From Sanderia malayensis (taxonomy: Eukaryota; Cnidaria; Scyphozoa; Semaeostomeae; Pelagiidae): 64,000 nucleotides of DNA. Each line of letters opens with the position of its first letter. The first letter of the stretch is position 1. Under the pieces are notes generated by a model. It saw only the letters and a program-made list of their open reading frames with translations, did not search any database and was not told the origin of the DNA. A program made the position numbers and the translations under genes. Positions 1,546-55,600 of this stretch are shown here, piece after piece. The DNA lies in assembly GCA_013076295.1 (NCBI GenBank), contig RQOL01000660.1, forward strand, positions 1-64,000, given 5' to 3'.

Positions 1546-3910
1546 AGAATAATAATAATAATAATAATAACTGGTTCTTACCCACAGTTTCTACCGCCAT
1601 ATGTATTATATGGGCAGTTTGCTCAACTGTGAACTATTTATCTACAATATTTCTACAACAACTAGGATTTTTTATTAAAGTAGACTAAAAATTGACTAAA
1701 AAACTTTTTACAGATTAAATTTCATTTCGGAAAAGTAAAATCAGATTGACTAAAAACCTTGTTTTCTGCTAAGGTAAATTACAAACTTTTTACAGGCTAA
1801 TTATTTACATTATTATAAAAGTTAGTTAAGTTTGTTGTCATGAGAAATGATTTTAAATTGGACTTAAAAGCATCCTTCACTTCAATTAGTCTTGTTTGAA
1901 GGGGTAAGTTATTCCAAACTTTAGGGCCCGCCCTGGAAATAGCTCGTTCACCATGTTTGGATTTGCAGATTGGTACCTCTAACGTCAATGTTCGTTTGTT
2001 TAATATTTTAATTTTACTTTTTATGGCCGAAGGTGCAATTCCCCAAACACAATTGTGTACGATCAGTGATATTTTGAAAATTATTCTTTCTCGAACCTGC
2101 AACCAATGTAGCTGACGGAACAATGGGGAAAGAGGTACCCTGCTAAATTTCCTTATATTGCATACTATACGAGCAGCCGCATTTTGAACTGATTGGAGTT
2201 TTCTGATTGATTTCATGTTAACATTATATAGCAGCGAATTACAATAATCGAGCTTTGATGTAACTAATGACGTAACTAAGGTGTTAAGTACCTCTTTGGG
2301 AAGAAAGCATTTAATCCGGGCAATGTTTCTTAGAATCGAGTAGCAATCAACGACAATTTTGTTAATGTGGCTTTCAAAGTTCAAATTTTCATCCATAATG
2401 ACACCAAGATTTCTTGCACTATCAACAAACCGGATGCATTCTCCATCAATAATTGTTCCATGAATTTTGATGGTAGCTTTAATTGATTCGGGTGCTATTA
2501 CCAATATCTTTGTTTTTGCCTTATTCAACTTTAAGAAATGAGCATCCATCCAGCTGGATGTCAATGAGAGACACTTTTGAACATCTTTTGTTAGGACACT
2601 GGATTGAAATACTGGGTGAAACGACTTGTATAGTTGATGATCATCAGCAAATCCAGTAATGGTAAATCCTGTACTATCTATTACAGAGTATAATGGTTGC
2701 ATATAGATATTAAATAATATTGGTCCAAGGACAGAACCTTGGGGAACACCAAAATTTAACATTGTTGGCTCAGAGAGTGCACCAGAAACCAGCACTTGTT
2801 GAGACCGACCCTTCAAATACGATGTAAACCATTTCAATGCGATCCCGTTAACACCAAGCCTGCTTTTGAGAATTTCAAGGAGTATATCTTGGTCCACAGT
2901 GTCAAATGCAGCACTTAAATCTAATAAAAGAAGCACAGTTGCACAATTCTTGTCAAATGCTGCCGCAATACTGTCCATTGTGTTGATGAGTAGTAATTCA
3001 GTGGAGTGATTCTTTTTGTACCCAAATTGGCAGGGAGAGTCAAACTTGTTGTCAAAAATATGCTTTTCAAGGCGAGCAGCTACACATCTCTCAACTAGTT
3101 TGCTAAGAAAAGGTAAGTTGGAAATTGGTCGGTAGTTCTTGCATAGTTCCAAGTCTGTTGAATTGTTTAGTCCTTTGAGCAGTGGTGTAATGATTGCTGA
3201 CTTCAAACCACTCATACATCCATATTCTAAAGAAAGATTAACAATCTCTACCCAAATTGGTAGGAAAGTTGTGATGTTGTCTGATAGGCATTGCTTGTTC
3301 AGGGGATCGTTTGGGGAAGACTTGATTTGAGTCGATTTAATGATTTGATTGAGTTCTTGGATTGTTGTAGGTTCAAAGTGAGTCAAGCAGTTGGATGTGG
3401 ATGGGCACGCATGCGAAGATTGGTCAAGAGGACTTGGTAAGTTAAAAGACTTTCTTATTTCATTAATTTTATTTTGGAAGTGCTTACTAAACGTATTTGC
3501 TAATGACAGATCACTTTCTGCAGATTGTGGTTGATTACAGGAAATAGGCAAGGTAAGTGACTTTGATATTTCAAATAATGTCCTAGCTTTATTGTCAGAG
3601 TTATTAAATTTATCTTTGTAGTATTGTATTTTTTTAGTTTTCGCCAGAGTTTTTTAGTTTTTTTAGAATGCTCTCAAGATACTTGAAACTATTCGTAGCT
3701 GTTTGTTTTGCATCTGCTGGCTTTCTCTGCGCACTCCGTTCAAGCACATGCACTTTGTCTTCTTTCTTGACACACAAATTTCTTCACGTTTTGAGGGTTC
3801 ATAAAATGTGCACTACATATACATTTTCGAATGTTCTCCAAAAATTGAATGGAATGGCCTCAAAAGATCCATAAATGCCCTGTTGGTATCAACGTCTTGG
3901 TCAATCACTA
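1546..3910 (-). mobile_element. 5'-truncated non-LTR retrotransposon (CR1/L2/Jockey-like LINE)
   Basis: Minus-strand LINE. A long reverse transcriptase frame is followed by a short 3' untranslated region ending in a (TTA)n-type tail, seen on the plus strand as an AAT microsatellite at 1548-1570; such simple-repeat tails are usual for CR1/L2-type LINEs. Upstream of the RT start, weak frameshifted coding similarity continues to about 3,910, resembling the linker between endonuclease and RT. I see no endonuclease domain, so the copy is probably 5'-truncated, as most LINE copies are. No target-site duplication could be fixed. Confidence 0.8.
1797..3551 (-). CDS. LINE reverse transcriptase (ORF2 fragment)
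   Basis: Uninterrupted 584-codon frame. It would copy element RNA into DNA at a nicked target. RT motifs occur in family order: KNYRPISNLPFLSKLVE near residues 138-154, the first catalytic Asp in LLLLDLSAAFDTVD (residues 207-220), GVPQGSVLGPILF (268-280), and the catalytic box FADD at 301-304. The usual box is YADD; FADD is common in CR1/L2/Jockey clades. The C-terminal part (HWLQVRERI, then AGPKVWNNLP and FKSNLKSFL) matches the conserved post-RT tail of animal CR1-like elements. The frame stays open 5' of the chosen Met, so the Met is arbitrary. The absence of stops suggests a fairly young copy, but no endonuclease is present. Confidence 0.9.
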   Translation of the reverse strand: MPISCNQPQSAESDLSLANTFSKHFQNKINEIRKSFNLPSPLDQSSHACPSTSNCLTHFEPTTIQELNQIIKSTQIKSSPNDPLNKQCLSDNITTFLPIWVEIVNLSLEYGCMSGLKSAIITPLLKGLNNSTDLELCKNYRPISNLPFLSKLVERCVAARLEKHIFDNKFDSPCQFGYKKNHSTELLLINTMDSIAAAFDKNCATVLLLLDLSAAFDTVDQDILLEILKSRLGVNGIALKWFTSYLKGRSQQVLVSGALSEPTMLNFGVPQGSVLGPILFNIYMQPLYSVIDSTGFTITGFADDHQLYKSFHPVFQSSVLTKDVQKCLSLTSSWMDAHFLKLNKAKTKILVIAPESIKATIKIHGTIIDGECIRFVDSARNLGVIMDENLNFESHINKIVVDCYSILRNIARIKCFLPKEVLNTLVTSLVTSKLDYCNSLLYNVNMKSIRKLQSVQNAAARIVCNIRKFSRVPLSPLFRQLHWLQVRERIIFKISLIVHNCVWGIAPSAIKSKIKILNKRTLTLEVPICKSKHGERAISRAGPKVWNNLPLQTRLIEVKDAFKSNLKSFLMTTNLTNFYNNVNN

Positions 3911-14205: not shown

Positions 14206-14629
14206 CTTCGTTGTATCCAACCAACCAATCTTGCTTAGGCCTAATAGCATCATATTCTGTCTTTTCAAGAAAGCATTTTGAACACAAAGTTCCGTACTCC
14301 GGGCTAGCGAAAAACCTACACCCGGGCGTGGAACATTCTTCACTCGGCTGCCTTGGTCCGACACCGAGTTCTTGGAGCGTACGAGGCTCGTCGTAAATAG
14401 GTTCAGGCTTGGGTTGCTGCCGTGAGCCCAGCTCAAATGCGCCTCCGCCAACACCTTCTCCATAAGCCGGTGGCTCACGATTGGCCAAAGTCCTGTCTGC
14501 TCGGCCAATCGCCTTTCCGTGGCAAATAATGCACATAAATTCATGTTCCCGGATGCCCATGTGTGGACAGCCGAGAGTCTTGCATGGAACTGGATTGGGA
14601 TAAGGACTATCCGATGGAAACTTTGAAGG
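14206..14629 (-). CDS. TNFAIP3: A20-like deubiquitinase, exon 3
   Basis: Bounded by acceptor TTTGCAG and donor GTATTT. It joins exon 2 in phase 0 and exon 4 in phase 1. It carries A20 zinc finger 4 (CKTLGC...CIIC, residues 741-761) and finger 5 (CSTPGC...CSKC, 824-844), separated by a glycine/proline-rich linker. The Cx4Cx11Cx2C spacing is exact in both. In vertebrate A20 these fingers bind ubiquitin and carry the E3-ligase-type activity of ZnF4; that function is family knowledge, not shown here. Confidence 0.88.
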
Positions 14630-14735
14630 CTGCAAATGCAGAAAAAATCATCACAACATCAACAAACAACATCAACTCGAAGTAAATAACGAGGAGTGGG
14701 TGCAAATGCGTAAAAATGTACGTGGAAAAGCATAC

Positions 14736-16504
14736 CCTTTCTGGAGGCTGCATTTGCACACGTGTGACTTGTCTCTCTTTCTCGGTCTGCAACACCTCCT
14801 CCTTCTTCACTGACTGTTGCTGGCAGCGATCGCAAAGTCCATTGAGTTTCTCGTTGGCTTCACTATCACAACCTGCCATGGTGCACCTACGTGTTGCAGC
14901 AGACGGTAAAGAGTAAAGACCCTGCTCAAAGGCTTCATCGACAAAGGCATCAGGCACGATGACATCCGAGGGTACTGTGGCAATCGGGGGTATGATGCGC
15001 GCCAGGCGCAATGGTGGAGGTACATTGGAATCAGCAGTCGCCACAGCGCATCTCAGTGGCGATGGTTCCGTGTACAGATCACTTACGTCGCTGCAATAAA
15101 TGCTAGCCATTTCGTTGCCACTGCTTGCAGACATCCGGCCTGGTCTGGACATTTCAGGGAAGTCTTGCTCGCACTGCCATGTAGTATTTGCTGCAACCAT
15201 GTGGTCTTTTATGCTTCCTGACGGCCAAAAACCAGCCCGCTTCTCTCTTGTCGTCTTCTTCCACCAAACATAAATCTGGTCCTTCCAGCACTTCCCACAC
15301 AATGGCACCTCCCTGTCCGTTGCCTTATTCTTGCAACCTTCGGTCATGCAATCAGCTTTTCCTTGACCCATGAAAGACTGACAGAGTTGGGAGCCAGCTA
15401 CAAGCTGCTCTTGACGGTCTGGATCAGATTTCTTCACACCTTGGAGCTTTACACCAGCGGTAGCAGTTACTCTGCTGTTATCTCTTGGCTCATTCCTTCG
15501 TCTACACTGTTCCAAGGCTTCAACAGGAGGGACATCACTCTTCTTTCTACACGTGGCAGCAGCCATTTTCTCATCGAACGGTGATGTCAAATCTCCAATC
15601 GGACTGCCGCTCATCTTCTCATCATAGCACAAACTGCAAAGGCCTTCGAACATATGCAATCCAGGGTTCGGACACAATGTCTTCAAGCATGTGCGACTGG
15701 TCCTGTTTTCACGATATTTTGGATGCATAATTACTCCAGCTGGTTTGGAGCGTCCTGAGCTTGGAATTTTCATCCAGGAGACTGGCAACCAGCTAGCCCT
15801 TGGAAGTAGCGGTAAAAGCTCTCCAGAAGGGGATGTTGGCTTGTTCAGGCTTTCATTGAACATCACTTTTGCCAGTGAGAACAGACTCCACATGAGCTCA
15901 ACAGACCATGTCGGCGGTGGCTTGAATTTCAATAGGGCTGCAGAAACGTGGTTTGGTTTCTGCACACACTCCCCACCATATAACGGAACATCCATACAGT
16001 CCAGATATGCCTGTACTAGATCTTCTTCAATATCATCATCCAACAAGAATCGCACCGGCATCCGAGACAGGTCTTCGTAGACAAGCGGTATGCAAAATTC
16101 CGAATTGGGATGGTCCTTCTGAGCAGATACCACGAGGTCAAAATCTTCAACGTTCAGCAATGGCATAAAATGATTCTGCCAGTAGCAGAGGACAATGGGT
16201 GTCTTCTCGCATTCGGATGGATCCCGCAGCAAGGGCAAGTAGATGCCACCCATCCTGCTTAGCTGGAATGATCGTTCCTCCAAGCTTCGATGCATTTCGT
16301 CGCAGATTACGATTATTGGCCTGGCGAGTATGCTGCTTGCCGTGAATATGTGAACAGCTTCCAACGACTGAAAGGATGGTCCCTGACTGCCGCATGGTAA
16401 TAGCATGGGAAAGACAGCTTGCACCACACTGTTCCAATCTGTACGCATCCCACCGGAATTGAAGTCAATTTCTTGCTCAGCCTTCCAGCGAGTGTAAATC
16501 TTGC
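14736..16504 (-). CDS. TNFAIP3: A20-like deubiquitinase, exon 2 (OTU core and zinc fingers 1-3)
   Basis: Large exon bounded by acceptor TTTCAG and donor GTATGC. It holds the second half of the OTU cysteine-protease domain: VHIFTASSILARPIIVI, IYLPLLRDPSEC and the catalytic-His segment PIVLCYWQNHFMPL (His247; human A20 His256 lies in the same block). Three A20 zinc fingers follow at residues 408-428, 521-541 and 676-696, all Cx4Cx11Cx2C. A20 removes K63-linked ubiquitin from signalling adaptors and thereby damps NF-kB activation. The open frame continues into the next intron; the donor and the homologous junction set the exon end. Exon lengths sum to 2,793 nt (931 codons with stop) without a frame break, against 790 residues in human A20, with six fingers instead of seven. 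Confidence 0.92.
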
Positions 16505-17548
16505 CTGAAAGTAAACAATTTGCTTGGTCTATTAACAATGCACCTGATAATTTGACGCATATCAAAAGTTAATAAAATAGATTAATTTGAACTATGTTCC
16601 AATGACAATTTACTATGTTCGTCGCTGCAAAGCATTGTGTGAAACTAAGATTCTTAAACTTAACCAGTGTATCTTTATGCCTAATATATACCATATTAAG
16701 CACCATAATATGCAGTTTGCTATGCATAATGTGCTTTTTACATAGCCCCAACATGCAGTATGTACTATGGTAAAATGTTCTGCTTGGTTAAAAAACAGCA
16801 TAAAAACACAAATCCCAGTGGATTAAAAACTTCTGAGCCTAATATTAATGAGATACAGCTAGAAACTTGTAGTGTGCAATAGGTACTGCTCTTGGGAATA
16901 TAAAATTTTGAAAATACAGTACAACCAAAAAATACAGTAAAACACCAATAATTCGAGTTTCCCAGAGACCAATGATAATGGTACAAGTTAACAAATGCTT
17001 GAGTTATCGGGAGTTAAAAGTACTATAAATGGCGCCAGTGGGCATGCAAAACAGTTCGAATTGTAGGAGGTTTGAGTTATCAAGATTTAACTTTAAAATT
17101 CTTGACACGGCAAGCTGAAGAGAATTTGAAAATAAATGAAACATTTAACATTTTCATTAACAATCATTTCGAAGATTTTCCAAGATTAAATCCGCGCAAA
17201 TAAATACAATTATTCATTAAACAAATCATTGTTAAAATATTGGTATTGCTATACACGGGAAAATTAAATTCAACCGCAATCTAAAATAGAAAGCAAAAGC
17301 AGCGCCATTGTTAAATTATTGCGCAATAGTTATTGTTCTGGCCACGTTACTTCAAAGTTCAAACTTTCCTACCAGATTAGAAAGGCTACTTCGCAGCAAT
17401 AATCTATTGTTCGCTTTCAACAGGTTGGATGCAATATTTACTGGTTTTTACGGGCGGGTTTTACTGCACGTATATAAAAAGAATATGCCCTGCAATGTAC
17501 CACTGCAACAGTACCACATGAACAGCAAACAACAACAACAAAACTCAC

Positions 17549-17954
17549 CAGTAGACCGATTCTCTGCCATCAACTTCTGGCGGATAAATCTGCGCAAAGT
17601 CAATTTTCTGTCGTGCACACCGAATACATATATAGAAATGGAGTGTAGCAAGCAATTTCCATCAGCATCCGTGTTCAAGGGAACGAGGCTGCGCGCTCCG
17701 CGGCACCAATTCACAAGCCTCCCTTTCTCTATCGAATTCAGGGCATCGATGTTTACGAGAAGATTCATCAAAAATTCAGGCAGGTTCTGGTTGTACTCAC
17801 GCAAACTATCAAAAGTGGGTATTATCATTGACGATTTCGTCACGTCAGACTTTATACCCTGGGGCGATTCTTCTCTTGAAATGAACTGGTGAATGCTTAG
17901 CGTAGCTAGCAGATTGCTCGATGAAAACGAACGATGTAGCTGTGAATGCGACAT
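17549..17954 (-). CDS. TNFAIP3: A20-like deubiquitinase, first recognised coding exon (OTU N-terminal half)
   Basis: Encodes the first 135 residues, including the catalytic-Cys box TDADGNCLLHSIS (Cys101; human A20 Cys103) and the following FGVHDRKLTLRRF, equivalent to the vertebrate WGVQDTDLVLRK segment. The donor GTGAGT gives phase 1 and joins exon 2 to read STG-KIYTRW, matching the family. The chosen ATG is the first three bases after a strong acceptor (pyrimidine tract ending TCTAG). At least one more exon, non-coding or short coding, must therefore lie upstream, beyond the 83-bp minisatellite. The Cys position close to the human one favours this start. Confidence 0.88.
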
Positions 17955-23258: not shown

Positions 23259-24078
23259 TCACCTAAGCGAACAGTTTCTGGCTTTGAAAGTTCTCGTACT
23301 CGCATGCTCGCTTTTCTTCTCAGAAGGTTTAGCTTTCTTTGGCTTATTACAATCTCTAGCAAAGTGACCCACAATTCCACAATTATAGCACTTCCCTATT
23401 GTCTTTGTTGATGAAGCAATTCTTTGATCACATGACTTTGGTTTAGCGCTCACAGAGAGCATTGCTTTTTCAAAGCTTTCTGTGGAAGAAGTCGATGACT
23501 CACTCCGCTTCCTCTCTTCGTGAAGCAACCTGGCTGTCACAAACTCCACATTTAAATCTTCAACACGAGATTCTAATGCTACGATCAAATTGCTATATGA
23601 TTCTGCAAGGCTACATAATAAAGTTGCCACCTGATCATCTTCTGATATCGGCGCACCTACTGATTCGAATTGTTCTGCTAACGACTTTAGCTTGTTGACA
23701 TGCTCCATCATGTTATCACCAAAATTCATTGTAGCTGTAAAATATTTCTTTCTCAAAAATAACTTGTTTCCTAATGACTTTACCTGGTAGTGGTTCTCAA
23801 GCTTCTTTTGCTGACTGTGCTGTACGGACTAAAGATAACTGCTCATCTCCCAGAGATAAACAAATTGTGGCGAGAGCTTTTCTCCCACGTTTTCTGAATC
23901 TTTGTAACTGTGTTTCGGTTACGCCTTGATTATCAGGCTCTAACTCTTCTCCAGACACAATTCCCCAAAGATCTTTGTCCTCCAAAACCATCTGCATTTT
24001 AAATTTCCATAAATGAAAATTTTCTCCTCGAAATTTCTCAATTCGTAACGGTGCAGAATCCTCACCAATCGAAGGCAT
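23259..24078 (-). pseudogene. Ty1/copia-type gag with CCHC knuckle, frameshifted
   Basis: The first segment (93 codons from 24,078) has FRGENFHLWKFKMQMVL, typical of copia gag N-termini. A frameshift near 23,790 moves the frame, and the second segment carries ATLLCSLAESYSNL and the zinc knuckle CYNCGIVGHFARDC, which packages element RNA in this family. The frame stops shortly after the knuckle and no protease, integrase or RT follows, so the element is truncated near 23,220. Confidence 0.85.
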
Positions 24079-35025: not shown

Positions 35026-35551
35026 TGTTGTGAAAGAGCAAAGCAATGATGCTTGCAACTATAGCAACAGTTAACCATAACAACAGTTGACCTTTGATTT
35101 TATATATTCCTAATTTCGTAATCACTTTTAGTTGAACTTTGATTTTATTATTTCGTAATTTTTACTAGATCAGTGACTTGACTTATTTTGATTTGTCGAA
35201 CATTATCTTTAATCAACATTATCCCCTTTTTTGGTAATATTAGATAAGTATTGGAACTGTAGGTATATAAACTCGATCTCATTCATTTTTAGTTTAGTTG
35301 GATTTTCTTGGTAATGATAATATAAATCTGTCGTTGAGTGACCGCGTCAGGAGTATCTAAGCCGATTGTAACGATTATATTTGAAAGAAAGATTAAAGAA
35401 GGTGAACTGAATTACCAAAAACTCTTCTGTCAAGAAAGAAACTGTGAGTTTGCTGTTGTAATATTAGTAATTTGTTTGTGTTGAACCAAAGATTTGAACC
35501 TTCGTCGTTGAACCCGTTGAACCGTTGAACCCCCTTGTAAGTGGTTTTACA
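35026..35551 (+). mobile_element. Solo LTR, family 1, 4-bp target duplication
   Basis: A 526-bp TGTTGTGAAAG...GGTTTTACA segment flanked by TGTT on both sides. It is homologous along its length to the inverted copy at 45,365-45,877. A TATATAAAC box lies near 35,266, in the position of an LTR promoter. No internal retroelement sequence adjoins it. The site itself is GC-box MITE-like DNA (AATAGAGGGGGTGTT). Confidence 0.85.
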
Positions 35552-44119: not shown

Positions 44120-44333
44120 TAGTATCCAAGTACCCTGGGTATTCTATTCTGTGAACAGCTCCGGCACAAGGACTCGATTCAGCAATGGTAGTCCCAAGCA
44201 GCATGTTTTGGTCATCATTCTACTGCCTTTGAGCGACTTGTCCCCCAATTTTCTGGTTGTATTGAACAGAAGATTTGCAATACCCATGTGCTGTATTGAC
44301 TGCGTTATGCTTGGAAGTTCCTCGTAAGATGAT
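44120..44333 (-). pseudogene. Downstream flank of the interrupted host frame
   Basis: Reads EELPSITQSIQHMGIANLLF and MMTKTCCLGLPLLNRV in one open frame, continuing the frame on the other side of the 2,988-bp transposon, then stops near 44,150. No family recognised. Confidence 0.55.
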
Positions 44334-44741
44334 AGACAGGTACAGGCGCAAAATCTTTTGAATATTGAAAACAGATATTGTTTGTAACATTTTTCCTATG
44401 TAAAATTTCATGCTCTTTCCGAATCTGCTTGTTACCAAACGATTCAGCGGTGGGTGTGGCAGGGCGTGGTCATGTGATGTCATATCAAATTTGTCCTATG
44501 TTTGGCCCGGGTAAACGGTGGAAAGCTACTTAAATCAAGTGAAAATATGTCCTTAAAAGGAAATCGACGTTGCTCTCTGTTCCATGAATATAGGGACCCT
44601 ATAGGGAAAACAAGGGGGACGCAGGGGGGCCATTTTCCCTAATTTTATTAATATTCCATTATTGGGTGTGCTCAAACGAGGTCTCGCTTAGTTTTTGTTA
44701 ATTAGTCATTACAAATTACAAACGAAAACTAAAGTGTACTT

Positions 44742-45360
44742 TTAGGGAAGATATTCAGGGTCATCACTGTCATATTCATCACTTTCAGAGCTAAAATCTT
44801 CAAATAACTGCTCCCAAAATTCTACTTCGCTCGCATTATCATCATGAGCATCGAAATCATTATTCAATTCTTCTCTTTCTGCATCACTCCCAGAAGTCTC
44901 TACATCTGTGGTGTGCTGAGATCTTGGTCGGTTTTGTCTTGCTGTAGCTGATGGAGGCATTTGAGGACCATCATACCACCGTGGATTCAAAACACCATCT
45001 TTGCAATACCATCCGCTATCACAGGGATTTATTTTCTGAACGATTCGTGTGCCAAAGTGTTTGAGGTAGTAAGCTGCCATATTTGCTCGCTTTACCGCAT
45101 AAGCAATGCTGCCAGGGTCTGGTATGATGGTCTGTGTTGTTTTCAATCGAAGCCTGTCATATTGTCTGATCCTGAGACTCACCAAGTCTTCGTCGGATTT
45201 TCCATTGTAAATTACGTTCTTTATGAAACTAGTAACATCGTGTTGGTCTTCAGCATCCAGTGTTCTTGCAGTTCCAAGCTTGTCAAGCAGATGAAGATGG
45301 TTGCCTTTCCTTGCTTTCTCGAAGATACACTTCTTTGATGTATGGTAAAAATAGCTTGTT
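44742..45360 (-). CDS. FEN/PIN-like transposon protein, C-terminal part
   Basis: Continues the frame of the upstream part after removal of the solo LTR: TSYFYHTSKKCIFEKARKG is the natural continuation of ITGCDT. The end is strongly acidic (EREELNNDFDAHDD, SSESDEYDSDDPEYLP). The two parts total 1,431 nt, 476 codons, with no other break. The apparent start codon a few codons upstream lies within the LTR and is spurious. Confidence 0.75.
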
Positions 45361-45364
45361 GTAT

Positions 45365-45877
45365 TGTAAAACCACTTAAAAGGGGGTTTTACACGTGGGT
45401 TCAACGACGAAGGTTCAAACACAACAGGTTATTAATATTACGACAAACTCACAGTTATTTTCTTGACAGAAGAGTCTTTGGTGATTCGGTTTCTTTTTCG
45501 TTCAAATTCAATTCTTTAATTCAAATTCAATCGATACTGATACTCGTGACGCGGTCACTCAACAACAACCAACAAAAATCCAACTGCACATTTAACTACA
45601 AATTCAACTAACTAAAAATCAATGAGAAGAAGATTATATACCGATACTTGTTACACGTGTCTACGATTACCAAAAAAGGAATAATATTGTTTAAAGATTA
45701 AGTTCTACCAATCAAAATAAAGCAAGTCATTAATGAGTTTAAAATTACGAAATACAAAATCAAAGTTCAACTAAAAGAGATTACGAAATTAGAAATATAT
45801 AAAAATCAAAGGTCAATTGTTACCTTGGTTAATTGTTGTTATAGTTGCAAGCATCGTTGCATTGTTCTTTCGCAACA
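45365..45877 (-). mobile_element. Solo LTR, family 1, inside the transposon gene
   Basis: A 513-bp LTR (minus strand TGTTGCGAAAG...GGTTTTACA) with GTAT on both sides, a 4-bp duplication typical of some Ty3/gypsy elements. It splits the GCDT codon block. It matches the solo LTR at 35,026 in inverse orientation. Confidence 0.9.
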
Positions 45878-46689
45878 GTATCACAGCCTGTGATAACATG
45901 GAAGGCAGGAAGATAAATAGAAGTTTCTCTTCCAAGAAATGTCACAATTTTTCTAACACTGATAAATTTATCATTGTCAATCTGTATACACCAATCGAAA
46001 TCCGGTTGCTTTAAGGCGTACGCGTAAACCATGAGAATAAATACGTCTGTATCCTTGGCTTTTACAACTACTGGACCTTCACACTGAAATGCATGTAGAA
46101 CAATTCTCGTGTCCGCTTCCTCGTGATTACAATCCCCCAGTTCTTCAATGTTCGTGTTGCTGACCTTTAGAGTGTAGAATCCATGATTAACAGTGTACTG
46201 AATTCTCATCTGATTCCTCGTTTGTTGTTGCTGAACATAGTCTACGAACCGCTTGATTAACTCATCCTTGTTTTCGTTATTGTGCATGAAACTTTGAAAA
46301 TCCTTCCCTTGAATCATATCTTGAACGTTTGTTCCCATATGCACTCTTGCGCTGGTGCCTCTTTCAATTCTTGTCGCTTGTTTGATTGAAAATTCTTGGT
46401 CGTCTATGTAATTATCAAACACAACTACTGACTCCGCTGCATTCAATGGAGAGGCAGGCGTGAAAGATCTCAGTTGGTTTGCCATGTAATCACCCCACGT
46501 TTTTGCTGGCTTCGAAGCTCTTATTGTAGCCATGGCATCATAAATCCACGTTGCTTGCAAAGGGGGTGACATTATAGATGCATCGGCTTCCTCGATGATG
46601 TAATTCCGAAATTTGGCCTTTGAGCCTGGTTGATAAAGCTTGCCATCTGTAGTAGCTATTGCAAGTGGATAAGAAGCAGATCCCTGCAC
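45878..46689 (-). CDS. FEN/PIN-like transposon protein, N-terminal part
   Basis: 271 codons up to the LTR insertion. Conserved acidic blocks occur in the order VVFDNYID then SIKQATRIERG (residues 88-111), NHEEADTRIVLHA (188-200), VVVKAKDTDVFILM (207-220) and HVITGCDT (264-271). A buried FD...K...R motif followed by E(A)D, DTD and GCD blocks is the arrangement of FEN1/XPG/asteroid-type PIN-like nucleases. That assignment is inference from motif order. Proteins with HEEADTR/GCDTT blocks are widespread as uncharacterised multicopy families in cnidarians. Position inside a terminal-repeat element suggests a role in its movement. Confidence 0.7.
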
Positions 46690-47321
46690 AAGAAGCAGAT
46701 GTTTCTCTCATCACCTGGCACCAGGGATAAAAATGGCGTATTGAATGTCGATGTCATCGGATGTCATGCAATCCGGTCTAGTTGACACAGCAGCAAGTTC
46801 GTATCACTAAAATTTCGCTTGCAGTCGCCCAGTCTCGTTTGGGATATTGCAATCTCGTTTTGGAAATTTTGAGTTAAAGATAAAGAGTTAGAAAACTGAA
46901 GGATGATGATTGTGCCGGGATTGTGCGGGTAAAATTTGGGAGGAGCACATTGTTGAAAAATATAACAAAACAAAAGGTCCAGTGCTGGGGGAACAATGAC
47001 ATTTTAATAATATGGGGGAACACGGCTCCCCCCTGTCCCCCCTTGCTTTTCCCATACCCATGGCCCCCCAATGGGGCTGAGCAGCGATGATTTCCTTTTG
47101 AAGATATATTTCTACTTGATTTAAGTAGCTTTCCAACGTTTACCCGGGCCAAAACATAGGAAAATTTTGATATGACGTCACATGACCACGCCCTGCCACA
47201 CCCACCGCTGAATCGTTTGGTAACAAGCAGATTCGGAAAGAGCATGAAATTTTACATAGGAAAAATGTTACAAACAATATCTGTTTTCAATATTCAAAAG
47301 ATTTTGCGCCTGTACCTGTCT

Positions 47322-47600
47322 ATGATATACGGAATTCATCTCTCCGTAGCACGATCAGGGCCGTGAGCCGATCTGATCTTCGCTCTTGAATAGCTGGATC
47401 ATTTATGTCCAAAAAGCTTTCAATTTTGCCAAGTTGCTGAGCACATTCGTCAAAGAGGCTCATCTCCACATCAATCGGTTTGCGTATGACTGATAGAAAT
47501 AAACTGCTCGTTTCCCCGCTAGAATCAGAGTCATAACTCGGTAGTTTATCTTTTTGTAGCAATTTCCCTATTTGCTCCCAGATATTGCAATTCTCTTTCT
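47322..47600 (-). pseudogene. Upstream flank of the interrupted host frame
   Basis: Encodes WEQIGKLLQKDKLPSYDS and DRLTALIVLRRDEF, continuous with the frame at 44,120-44,333 once the transposon is removed. It lies directly downstream of the Ulp1-like remnant and may be its C-terminal extension. Confidence 0.5.
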
Positions 47601-52648: not shown

Positions 52649-55600
52649 CAGGGATGCCGGAAGCACACTGGGGCACAGGGGGTCAAACATTTTTAAAGGG
52701 CACTTTTGGGCGTGGCATACGAAAAAAATTTGGGCGTGGCATATTAAAAACGAAACGCTATATAGTGTTAACTGTGAACGCAAATTGTTTAACAGCGCTC
52801 CTGTGTTAAACATATTTGATAAATGAACAGAACGATAGTTTTATAACGAAATGTTGTAACTAAATTAGGAAAATAAGAAGTACAGCCGGCAAAACGGTTC
52901 TAATTGAATGCACCAAAGTAATTTCTTCTTTGTTCTGTTTTTCCGACCAACTCGCTTGCAACCTCTGGCACATCAATATCATCCATCAATTGTTTATGTA
53001 TTGTTGCAAACATAATATTATTGAGGTGATTTCCTTCTGTTTGTGCTCGCAGCCACGTTTTGCACCTTCTCATCACGCTGAACGTACGCTCTGCAGTTGC
53101 TGAGCTTAGTGGCACTGACAGATAGAGCTTTATCAATTCATGAACGCTTGGGCATGACTTTTTCGCCGACTCATTTCCATTGAGCAAATCACATAACGTG
53201 GCAACTCGTGTTACACGCTTAATGAGGGAGTCTTGAGGTGCTGAGGCATTGTGCATTTTTATCACGAACGGTATTTCTTCCAATTCTTCCTTTAATATTT
53301 CTTGATCAAAAAACGCATGATATTTTTCTGTGACTGCAGTAAAATCATCCACAGGGTGCGGCTCTCTATTTGCCGCTGAAAGCAACATACTCTCCATTGA
53401 TTTCAACAATTTAATGTCAGTTTGGCTATACCGTGTATTGATACCCTCTAAAATTGCGTCCAATGCTTCAAAATGTTTCATTTTTAGTTGGTCTGATGAG
53501 GTTGATGTGCTTTCTGTATTTCCCAGTCCCTCAGCGTACACAACAAAATCTGAATGTCGTGATGGCATTTTTCTTTTTCTTGATGGCTGATCCTCTTCCT
53601 GTACCAAATTTCCAAATTTTTCCACTTTGTGAAGAATATGGACATACTCTTCGTTGGATCTCATTGCGTGAAACTTAGTAACAGTTTTCTCAATACTATA
53701 GGATGCGTAATCGGCAGAGTTATCCACTGCTTGCAATTCTTTGGACAACTTTTCCATAACTACGATAATGTCATAGAGTGATACGATGGAAAACATCATT
53801 TTATAGGAAGAAAGCTTTGCTTCTAAGCCTTGTGCTTGTGCTTTAACATGGCCGCTGTTGCTTCGATCCCCTGATATTTCTTGCAGTGTAGCTCTTAACT
53901 CTGCATGCTTCTCAATTATGACCTTAGCAGCTCTACCCCTGCTCGTCCAACGTGTTTGGGACAAACTCTTCAGATTTACTGGCTTTGAACCGAAGGAAGA
54001 TATAGATCTATTTGATATTTCTAGCTCTGTTTCTTTTTTCTGAATTTCGTCAAAAAGGAGAACTCTTTTCGGGTAGGCACCAACAAATGCATATAAATCT
54101 TGGCATAAATCCAGGGCATCGCTTAATAAATGTGATACTTCAACCGCATCCTTAATAATGAGCTCCGTGCAGTGTGCCAGGCAATGAACGTATAATGCTT
54201 GCGCTCCTGCATAATCTTTTACATCTCTTGCTAGCTTTTTCATTACTGAGGGCCCATCAAACCCCATCCCAACCAGGTTTGCCTTGTCTAGGCCACATCT
54301 CAGAAGAATGTCTTTCACATAATCAAGTAAAGCATCTGCAGATAGGCCTCTTGAGCAATGCATTACCCCAATAAAATCCTCCATGATTTCATACCTATCA
54401 GATACTGTGCGAAATGATACAGAGAGCTGTTCCTTTTTCGAAATATCTGCAGACTCATCAGCAATGATCGAGAAATAATTGCTTGCACTCACTTTGGAGA
54501 TAAGTTGCCTTCTTGCTTTCAAAATTAACATTGATTCTTGTTCTTGAACAATATCATGGGACAAAAAGCGCTTTTCTTTCAAGAGTAACTTTAAACCAGG
54601 GACATGATTAGCTTTGTCAATAGTAAACTGAATCAAATTAGACTCCTCGTCATCCACTCGTCTGATGGCAATCCCTTGACGTAATACGGTCTTCAATGTG
54701 CATAGATGAGCAATAAGCCCCTCTCTGCGCTTTCTCTTGAGTTCTTCATTCATCGAGTCAATCCGTTTGGAAATTGTTGGTTCTTCTCCTTCATGCACTA
54801 TCTTTCGTCTTTCTGCATACTTGTGGATATCACTTTCATTATGATCTTTGAGTTTCTGGGACGCTTTTTTCCAATTTGAAAATCCATCTCCTCCAGCGCT
54901 AAACACAGTTTTTCCAATTGATTTCTTTTCCAAAAAGTTGAAACAAATATTGCAGAAAGCTGATTTTTTTTCTCGGCTGTACATTAACCATGGATAAATT
55001 TTCATCCATTCGACTAGAAAATATCTGCCATTTTTTTCACTTAACGCTTTGTCTTTAGATGTAAATTCTTCTGATAATTTTATCCACTCTTCTTCGTTTT
55101 GTTCTTCAGTTTCCTCGATGCAAATATTTATATTTCCTTCAATATTTGTCGATTGAGTAGAAGTGTGTGCATCAGTTTCTATCTCTTGGCTTGACTGTTC
55201 ACTGGCTGCTGGCCGCCGAAAGAAGCTTGAGCTTATTTTCGTTTGACCTTTTGCTTTAGCAGCTTCCTTATATTGCTTATTTTTTGATTCTTTAATTCTT
55301 TCTTTTCTTGGCATTTTAGCGATCTATCCTTCACTGTGCCTTTCAAAAAATCATTTGATTTGAGATAAAATTTTGTTTTGCCCTAATTAGTTTTGCAATA
55401 TCTTCCTGTTTCCGGCTCCTTTCAATTCTAAACATTTCTATAACGGCAAACAATGACATTCATTTGTATTCAAAACTCGCACAGATTCTTTGCTAGGCAT
55501 GTATCAAGTGTTTAATTGAGTTGCTTCCTGCCATACTGTTTCTGTATATGATAGCCATGATTGTGCTCCCATAAAAATAAAACCACTAAACACATAATTA

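Follow-up and report, generated by a model that had tools for sequence, protein, structure and literature searches.

A nuclease-bearing inverted-repeat element of the scyphozoan Sanderia malayensis, very probably an internally deleted AcademX-type transposon

Does a DNA transposon exist whose only gene encodes a FEN/PIN-like nuclease? The question is raised by an inverted-repeat element on contig RQOL01000660.1 of Sanderia malayensis (assembly GCA_013076295.1), in a stretch of 64,000 nucleotides hereafter called the window. A first-pass annotation had described the element as carrying such a gene alone, and had considered that the nuclease might move it. Our analysis indicates that the window element is very probably a non-autonomous, internally deleted copy of an AcademX-type cut-and-paste DNA transposon, whose intact relatives encode a DDE transposase fused to a FEN/XPG nuclease. 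The nuclease-only state describes one broken copy and not the element type, because the deletion joint of the window copy was matched nowhere else in the assembly. The locus looked like a nuclease-only transposon because this copy had lost its transposase half.

Damage in the window copy

A 201-bp probe covering the deletion joint gave 13 matches in the assembly. The window alone spanned the joint; the other 12 matches stopped at query position 77 or started at position 82 or later. The filler at the joint, AAGCAGAT, was identical to the eight bases at 46693–46700, and this identity suggests error-prone end joining. Seven sister copies (loci L009–L013, L020 and L029) showed 97.6–100% identity with the window over the shared stretches. 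In the longest of them, L010 (C487, 8.3 kb), approximately 5.7 kb separated the two sides of the window joint, some of which may be a later insertion, since L010 has its own inverted repeat pair there. The parts missing from L009, L011 and L012 were different from those missing in the window copy.

The 476-codon protein reported for the window was not continuous there, being split into two minus-strand frames by a 513-bp insert, and the frames that ran without a break, for 476 and 480 codons, were those of the sister copies L009 and L010. An intron at 45423–45828 was rejected, because the insert is repetitive, with copies in other places (window 35026–35551 at 75%, and L023 1005–1492 at 89%), is accompanied by a 4-bp duplication and is absent from the seven sisters, all of them continuous at this place. 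The upstream frame had a GTG start, its first in-frame ATG lying already within the nuclease domain. Pfam gave nothing credible for the window frames, with two matches at E 0.06, below the cut-off. The sequence blocks in FEN order, correctly recognised by the first-pass annotation, were found in the window protein, which corresponds to a FEN/XPG-type PIN nuclease. As had also been said, the window copy showed no sign of a DDE transposase. Among eight copies (the window and its seven sisters), the private changes in the nuclease comprised 5 synonymous and 19 non-synonymous ones, for 290 and 1123 sites, respectively, and no stops. This gives no sign of copy-by-copy selection keeping the nuclease; the pattern looks neutral, although the numbers are small. 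The window copy belongs, in defective form, to an already known kind of transposon and has no special standing.

Shared ends and the pairing of transposase with nuclease

The window element is an inverted-repeat transposon, as first described. Its arms at 44329–44524 and 47131–47326 were 93% complementary, and they were extended by the arms 44501–44575 and 47079–47153 (88% complementary). Taken as a whole, the repeats measured approximately 330 bp and were 86% identical. At least 40 matches to the left repeat were scored among 55 candidates in the 184-Mb assembly, with the right repeat of the window included. The ends and the target duplication were other than proposed. The ends read TAGACAGG and CCTGTCTA, and the apparent 5-bp duplication, included in the borders first given, consisted of a 3-bp TGA and an additionally matching A and T. 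Ends starting with AGACAGG together with 5-bp duplications were true of the window alone, one of the 14 elements measured. Joining the flanks across the insertion site gave a stop-free frame of 173 codons, so the restored frame stood; that frame had no match in Pfam.

The ends were compared over the window and 14 of the 28 loci L009–L036 with two recognisable TAGACAGG-type ends. The excluded loci had lost the left end (L012, L013), had at most one recognised end (L017, L018, L019, L023, L029, L036), lacked a recognisable end on the right side (L020, with its right side in L037), or had other repeats or none recognised (L031–L035). The loci L001–L008, short and placed around repeats mostly of the same copies, were not used. 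Fourteen two-ended elements, including the window, had TAGACAGG and CCTGTCTA ends, with one-base variants in four of the 28 ends; their duplication was exactly 3 bp in 13 cases and 4 bp in L015. The fifteenth element, L025, had TAGACAGG at both ends and a 3-bp duplication. In total, the target duplication measured 3 bp in 14 of the 15 elements and 4 bp in one.

Transposase and nuclease domains were compared over 30 stretches, the window and L009–L037, which were picked because they matched the repeats or the protein, and some of which overlap. At least 420 of the 441 residues of the transposase domain were present in 13 stretches (L010, L016, L017, L020–L028 and L035). The nuclease accompanied it in 12 of these 13 (244 to 388 of 388 residues), L017 being without any, and both TAGACAGG-type ends were found in nine (L010, L016, L021, L022 and L024–L028). 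L009, L011, L012 and L013 contained the nuclease and a partial transposase domain. In L031–L034, the nuclease was found without transposase at E 1e-5, yet a full-length query aligned through both parts with 23–26% identity. The nuclease was present and no transposase domain was detected, at the same E value, in the window, L014, L015, L029, L030 and L036, and neither domain was detected in L018, L019 and L037.

These counts run against the claim that the element type carries the nuclease gene alone. A real nuclease-only type, in which the FEN/PIN protein itself would cut and move the element, is very improbable. The window copy does have intact ends and a target duplication without a transposase. 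In addition, L014, L015 and L030 (G000 C777, C551 and C405), which are 3.2–3.5 kb long with TAGACAGG ends and hold two inverted, broken nuclease copies (with palindromic arms of 859 bp and 99.9% in L015), are separate insertions, since their target duplications differ (TTA, TAGA and AAA, respectively). Nuclease-bearing forms without a detected transposase have therefore moved. Against this, the nuclease in the palindromic forms consists of broken fragments, so that they were probably moved in trans, the deletion joint is confined to the window, the nuclease changes look neutral, and a transposase domain occurs in 13 of the 30 stretches, nine of them with both ends.

The intact relatives showed how the two domains are arranged. 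L021 (6.37 kb) and L022 (5.81 kb) had the same end type and single open frames of 1557 and 1624 codons, respectively, which were read from the first methionine as proteins P0001 and P0002. The layout of these proteins of approximately 1500 amino acids comprised a Cys/His-rich N terminus, a winged-helix-like region (a weak match), a DDE transposase of RNase H fold that carries a helical insertion, and a FEN/XPG-fold nuclease at the C terminus. L025–L028, with 36–39% protein identity to P0001, shared the TAGACAGG-type ends and the 3-bp duplications. Hydractinia was among the sources of protein relatives. In the eight full-length proteins, D440, D625 and E863 (P0001 numbering) formed an invariant D-D-E set. 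The FEN domain had a mean identity of 38% with 47 of 388 positions invariant, and the DDE region 44% with 77 of 441; such near-equal conservation is expected if both domains serve the element. A chance capture of a host FEN/asteroid-like gene between inverted repeats is hardly credible. The window copy, holding only a piece of the gene, would agree with it, but the nuclease makes up the C-terminal portion of a single frame of approximately 1500 codons shared with the transposase, inside the same end type, in families down to approximately 36–39% protein identity.

In the model of a relative, P0015 (mc225bbe9f811, residues 460–896), the transposase domain had an RNase H fold like that of the P element and hAT (Hermes) transposases, and the P element transposase was the closest among the chains compared. 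The C-terminal domain, also in the model of a relative, had the FEN/XPG fold, a PIN fold of the Rad2 type in which seven acids are conserved. A known transposase fold, named by the first-pass annotation as one of two findings that would overturn its view, was present in the full-length protein and not in the piece left in the window. Searching the PDB sequences with alignment A1 (hmmsearch) returned chance matches only (best E 1.6). A match to the influenza PB2 family in one of 20 proteins (E 0.0041) was taken as chance.

The multicopy nature of the nuclease, stated from the start, was confirmed: a genome search with the window's nuclease frame gave at least 139 matches (of 484 candidates, 136 were scored), of which 16, counted by eye, were in frames of at least 950 codons with no stop within the match. 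Among the stretches examined, most of the multicopy "uncharacterised" FEN/asteroid-like proteins are in transposons and many are fused to a transposase, which offers an explanation for them. The first observation was careful and mostly right, and its nuclease-only feature stems from one private deletion.

Window features and a possible mechanism

The features of the window element are collected in Table 1, followed by other frames present in the window. We propose that the transposase domain would cut the ends and insert the element with a 3-bp stagger, while the FEN domain might serve to trim 5' flaps, to trim the non-transferred strand or to process repair intermediates. The deletion could have arisen by faulty repair of a break within the element, leaving the short filler at the joint. 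It took away everything as far as the point where the FEN domain begins. The 513-bp repeat also disrupted the remaining nuclease frame. Because of the deletion and of the frame broken by this repeat, the window copy probably makes neither enzyme and would be mobile in trans only. A bolder proposal is that the FEN domain does a required cleavage, for example the removal of the non-transferred strand or the resolution of flaps after DDE strand transfer. Each transposition cycle would then use two metal nucleases in one polypeptide, on a P-element-like core forming its own lineage next to Academ; we consider this doubtful. The family, defined by TAGACAGG ends, 3-bp duplications and frames of approximately 1500 codons, is a place to probe what a FEN-type nuclease does when it is joined to a DDE transposase.

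Table 1. Positions of the transposon, its parts and other frames in the window.
Feature	Position	Strand	Remark
Internally deleted terminal inverted repeat DNA transposon (very probable), TAGACAGG...CCTGTCTA	44333..47322		2,990 bp including the nested 513-bp insert; repeats, sister comparison, end measurement
TGA, left 3-bp target site duplication	44330..44332		End measurement
TGA, right 3-bp target site duplication	47323..47325		End measurement
Left terminal inverted repeat	44333..44660	+	About 330 bp
Right terminal inverted repeat	46995..47322	-	86% identity to left
Frame with first two thirds of FEN/XPG-type nuclease domain	45829..46689	-	Aligns with P0006 445-711; 3' end enters nested insert
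Frame with remaining nuclease domain and natural C terminus	44742..45422	-	Aligns with P0006 708-909; first codons in nested insert
Nested 513-bp repeat inside nuclease gene	45365..45877		Absent from seven sister copies
GTAT, 4-bp duplication of nested insert	45361..45364		Second copy 45878-45881
Deletion joint with filler AAGCAGAT	46674..46681		Sister comparison, joint probe
Reverse transcriptase frame	1797-3551		
Two frames matching OTU-like cysteine protease	14607-17954		Second match below Pfam's cut-off
Copia-type gag with zinc knuckle	23259-23756		
hAT-type transposase gene	52900-55314		DUF4371 and hAT dimerisation domain; one 804-codon open frame

Comparison with known transposons and nucleases

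AcademX elements have a nuclease of the XPG type, and the letters NV in Academ-1_NV stand for Nematostella. Kojima is said to have placed AcademX, in 2020, as a lineage within Academ, a superfamily of DNA transposons with a DDE transposase. According to the available parts of the sources, the duplications of AcademX measure 3 or 4 bp and those of AcademH 9 or 10 bp, lengths that were related to the encoded nuclease and helicase, respectively (PMC10045372); Academ is counted among the DDD/E superfamilies (PMC9587614); the Academ elements of bivalves average 5,565 bp in length (PMC10294476); and Academ-1_NV is named (PMC9004415). The available parts of PMC10799480, PMC8290104 and PMC5753468 hold nothing further on the nuclease, and those of the Academ literature gave no mention of a P-element fold link of this transposase core.

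Several points weigh against the assignment to AcademX. The superfamily name is drawn from the architecture, the length of the duplications and the size of the elements rather than from a reference Academ sequence. For neither model did Foldseek find a match at E ≤0.001, the best values being 3.7e-3 and 1.6e-2; the folds were assigned from VIA-align Z, and the two models represent relatives and not the window frames. The only recurrent Pfam family was DUF6589, a domain of unknown function, which was matched in 12 of the 20 proteins scanned at a threshold of E 0.01. L031 and L034, relatives at a protein identity of approximately 23–26%, carry long inverted repeats with a start other than TAGACAGG.

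It is improbable that a DDE superfamily or lineage other than Academ, for example a P-element-like one, gained a FEN/XPG nuclease independently. The fold likeness to the P element is compatible with Academ. The target duplications of P and hAT elements measure 8 bp, whereas those of all 15 elements measured here are of 3–4 bp, so that neither membership agrees with this length. For AcademX, the available part of PMC10045372 states both a nuclease and a duplication length of 3 or 4 bp.

Compared with the Drosophila P element and Hermes (hAT), the element thus differs by its 3–4-bp duplications and also by its ends and the extra FEN domain. The ends of EnSpm/CACTA elements start with CACT, unlike the ends found here, which are TAGACAGG, with the one-base variants in four of 28. 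Harbinger duplications are also of 3 bp; no Harbinger match was listed for the 20 proteins in a general Pfam scan, no further Harbinger test being made. The nuclease domain differs from FEN1, EXO1, XPG and Rad2 by an identity of approximately 10–14% and by its position C-terminal to a transposase. FEN1 carries an E-x-E pair with the second Glu, where the element domain has a D. The window copy itself differs from AcademX in being deleted, 2.99 kb long and without a transposase, the DDD/E domain being found in the full-length relatives, and its nuclease is kept but broken. The intact elements resemble AcademX in their size of 5.8–6.4 kb, their terminal inverted repeats, their 3- or 4-bp duplications and the presence of a nuclease beside a DDE transposase. 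AcademX is provisionally the best name for this family because every feature tested fits and none is contrary.
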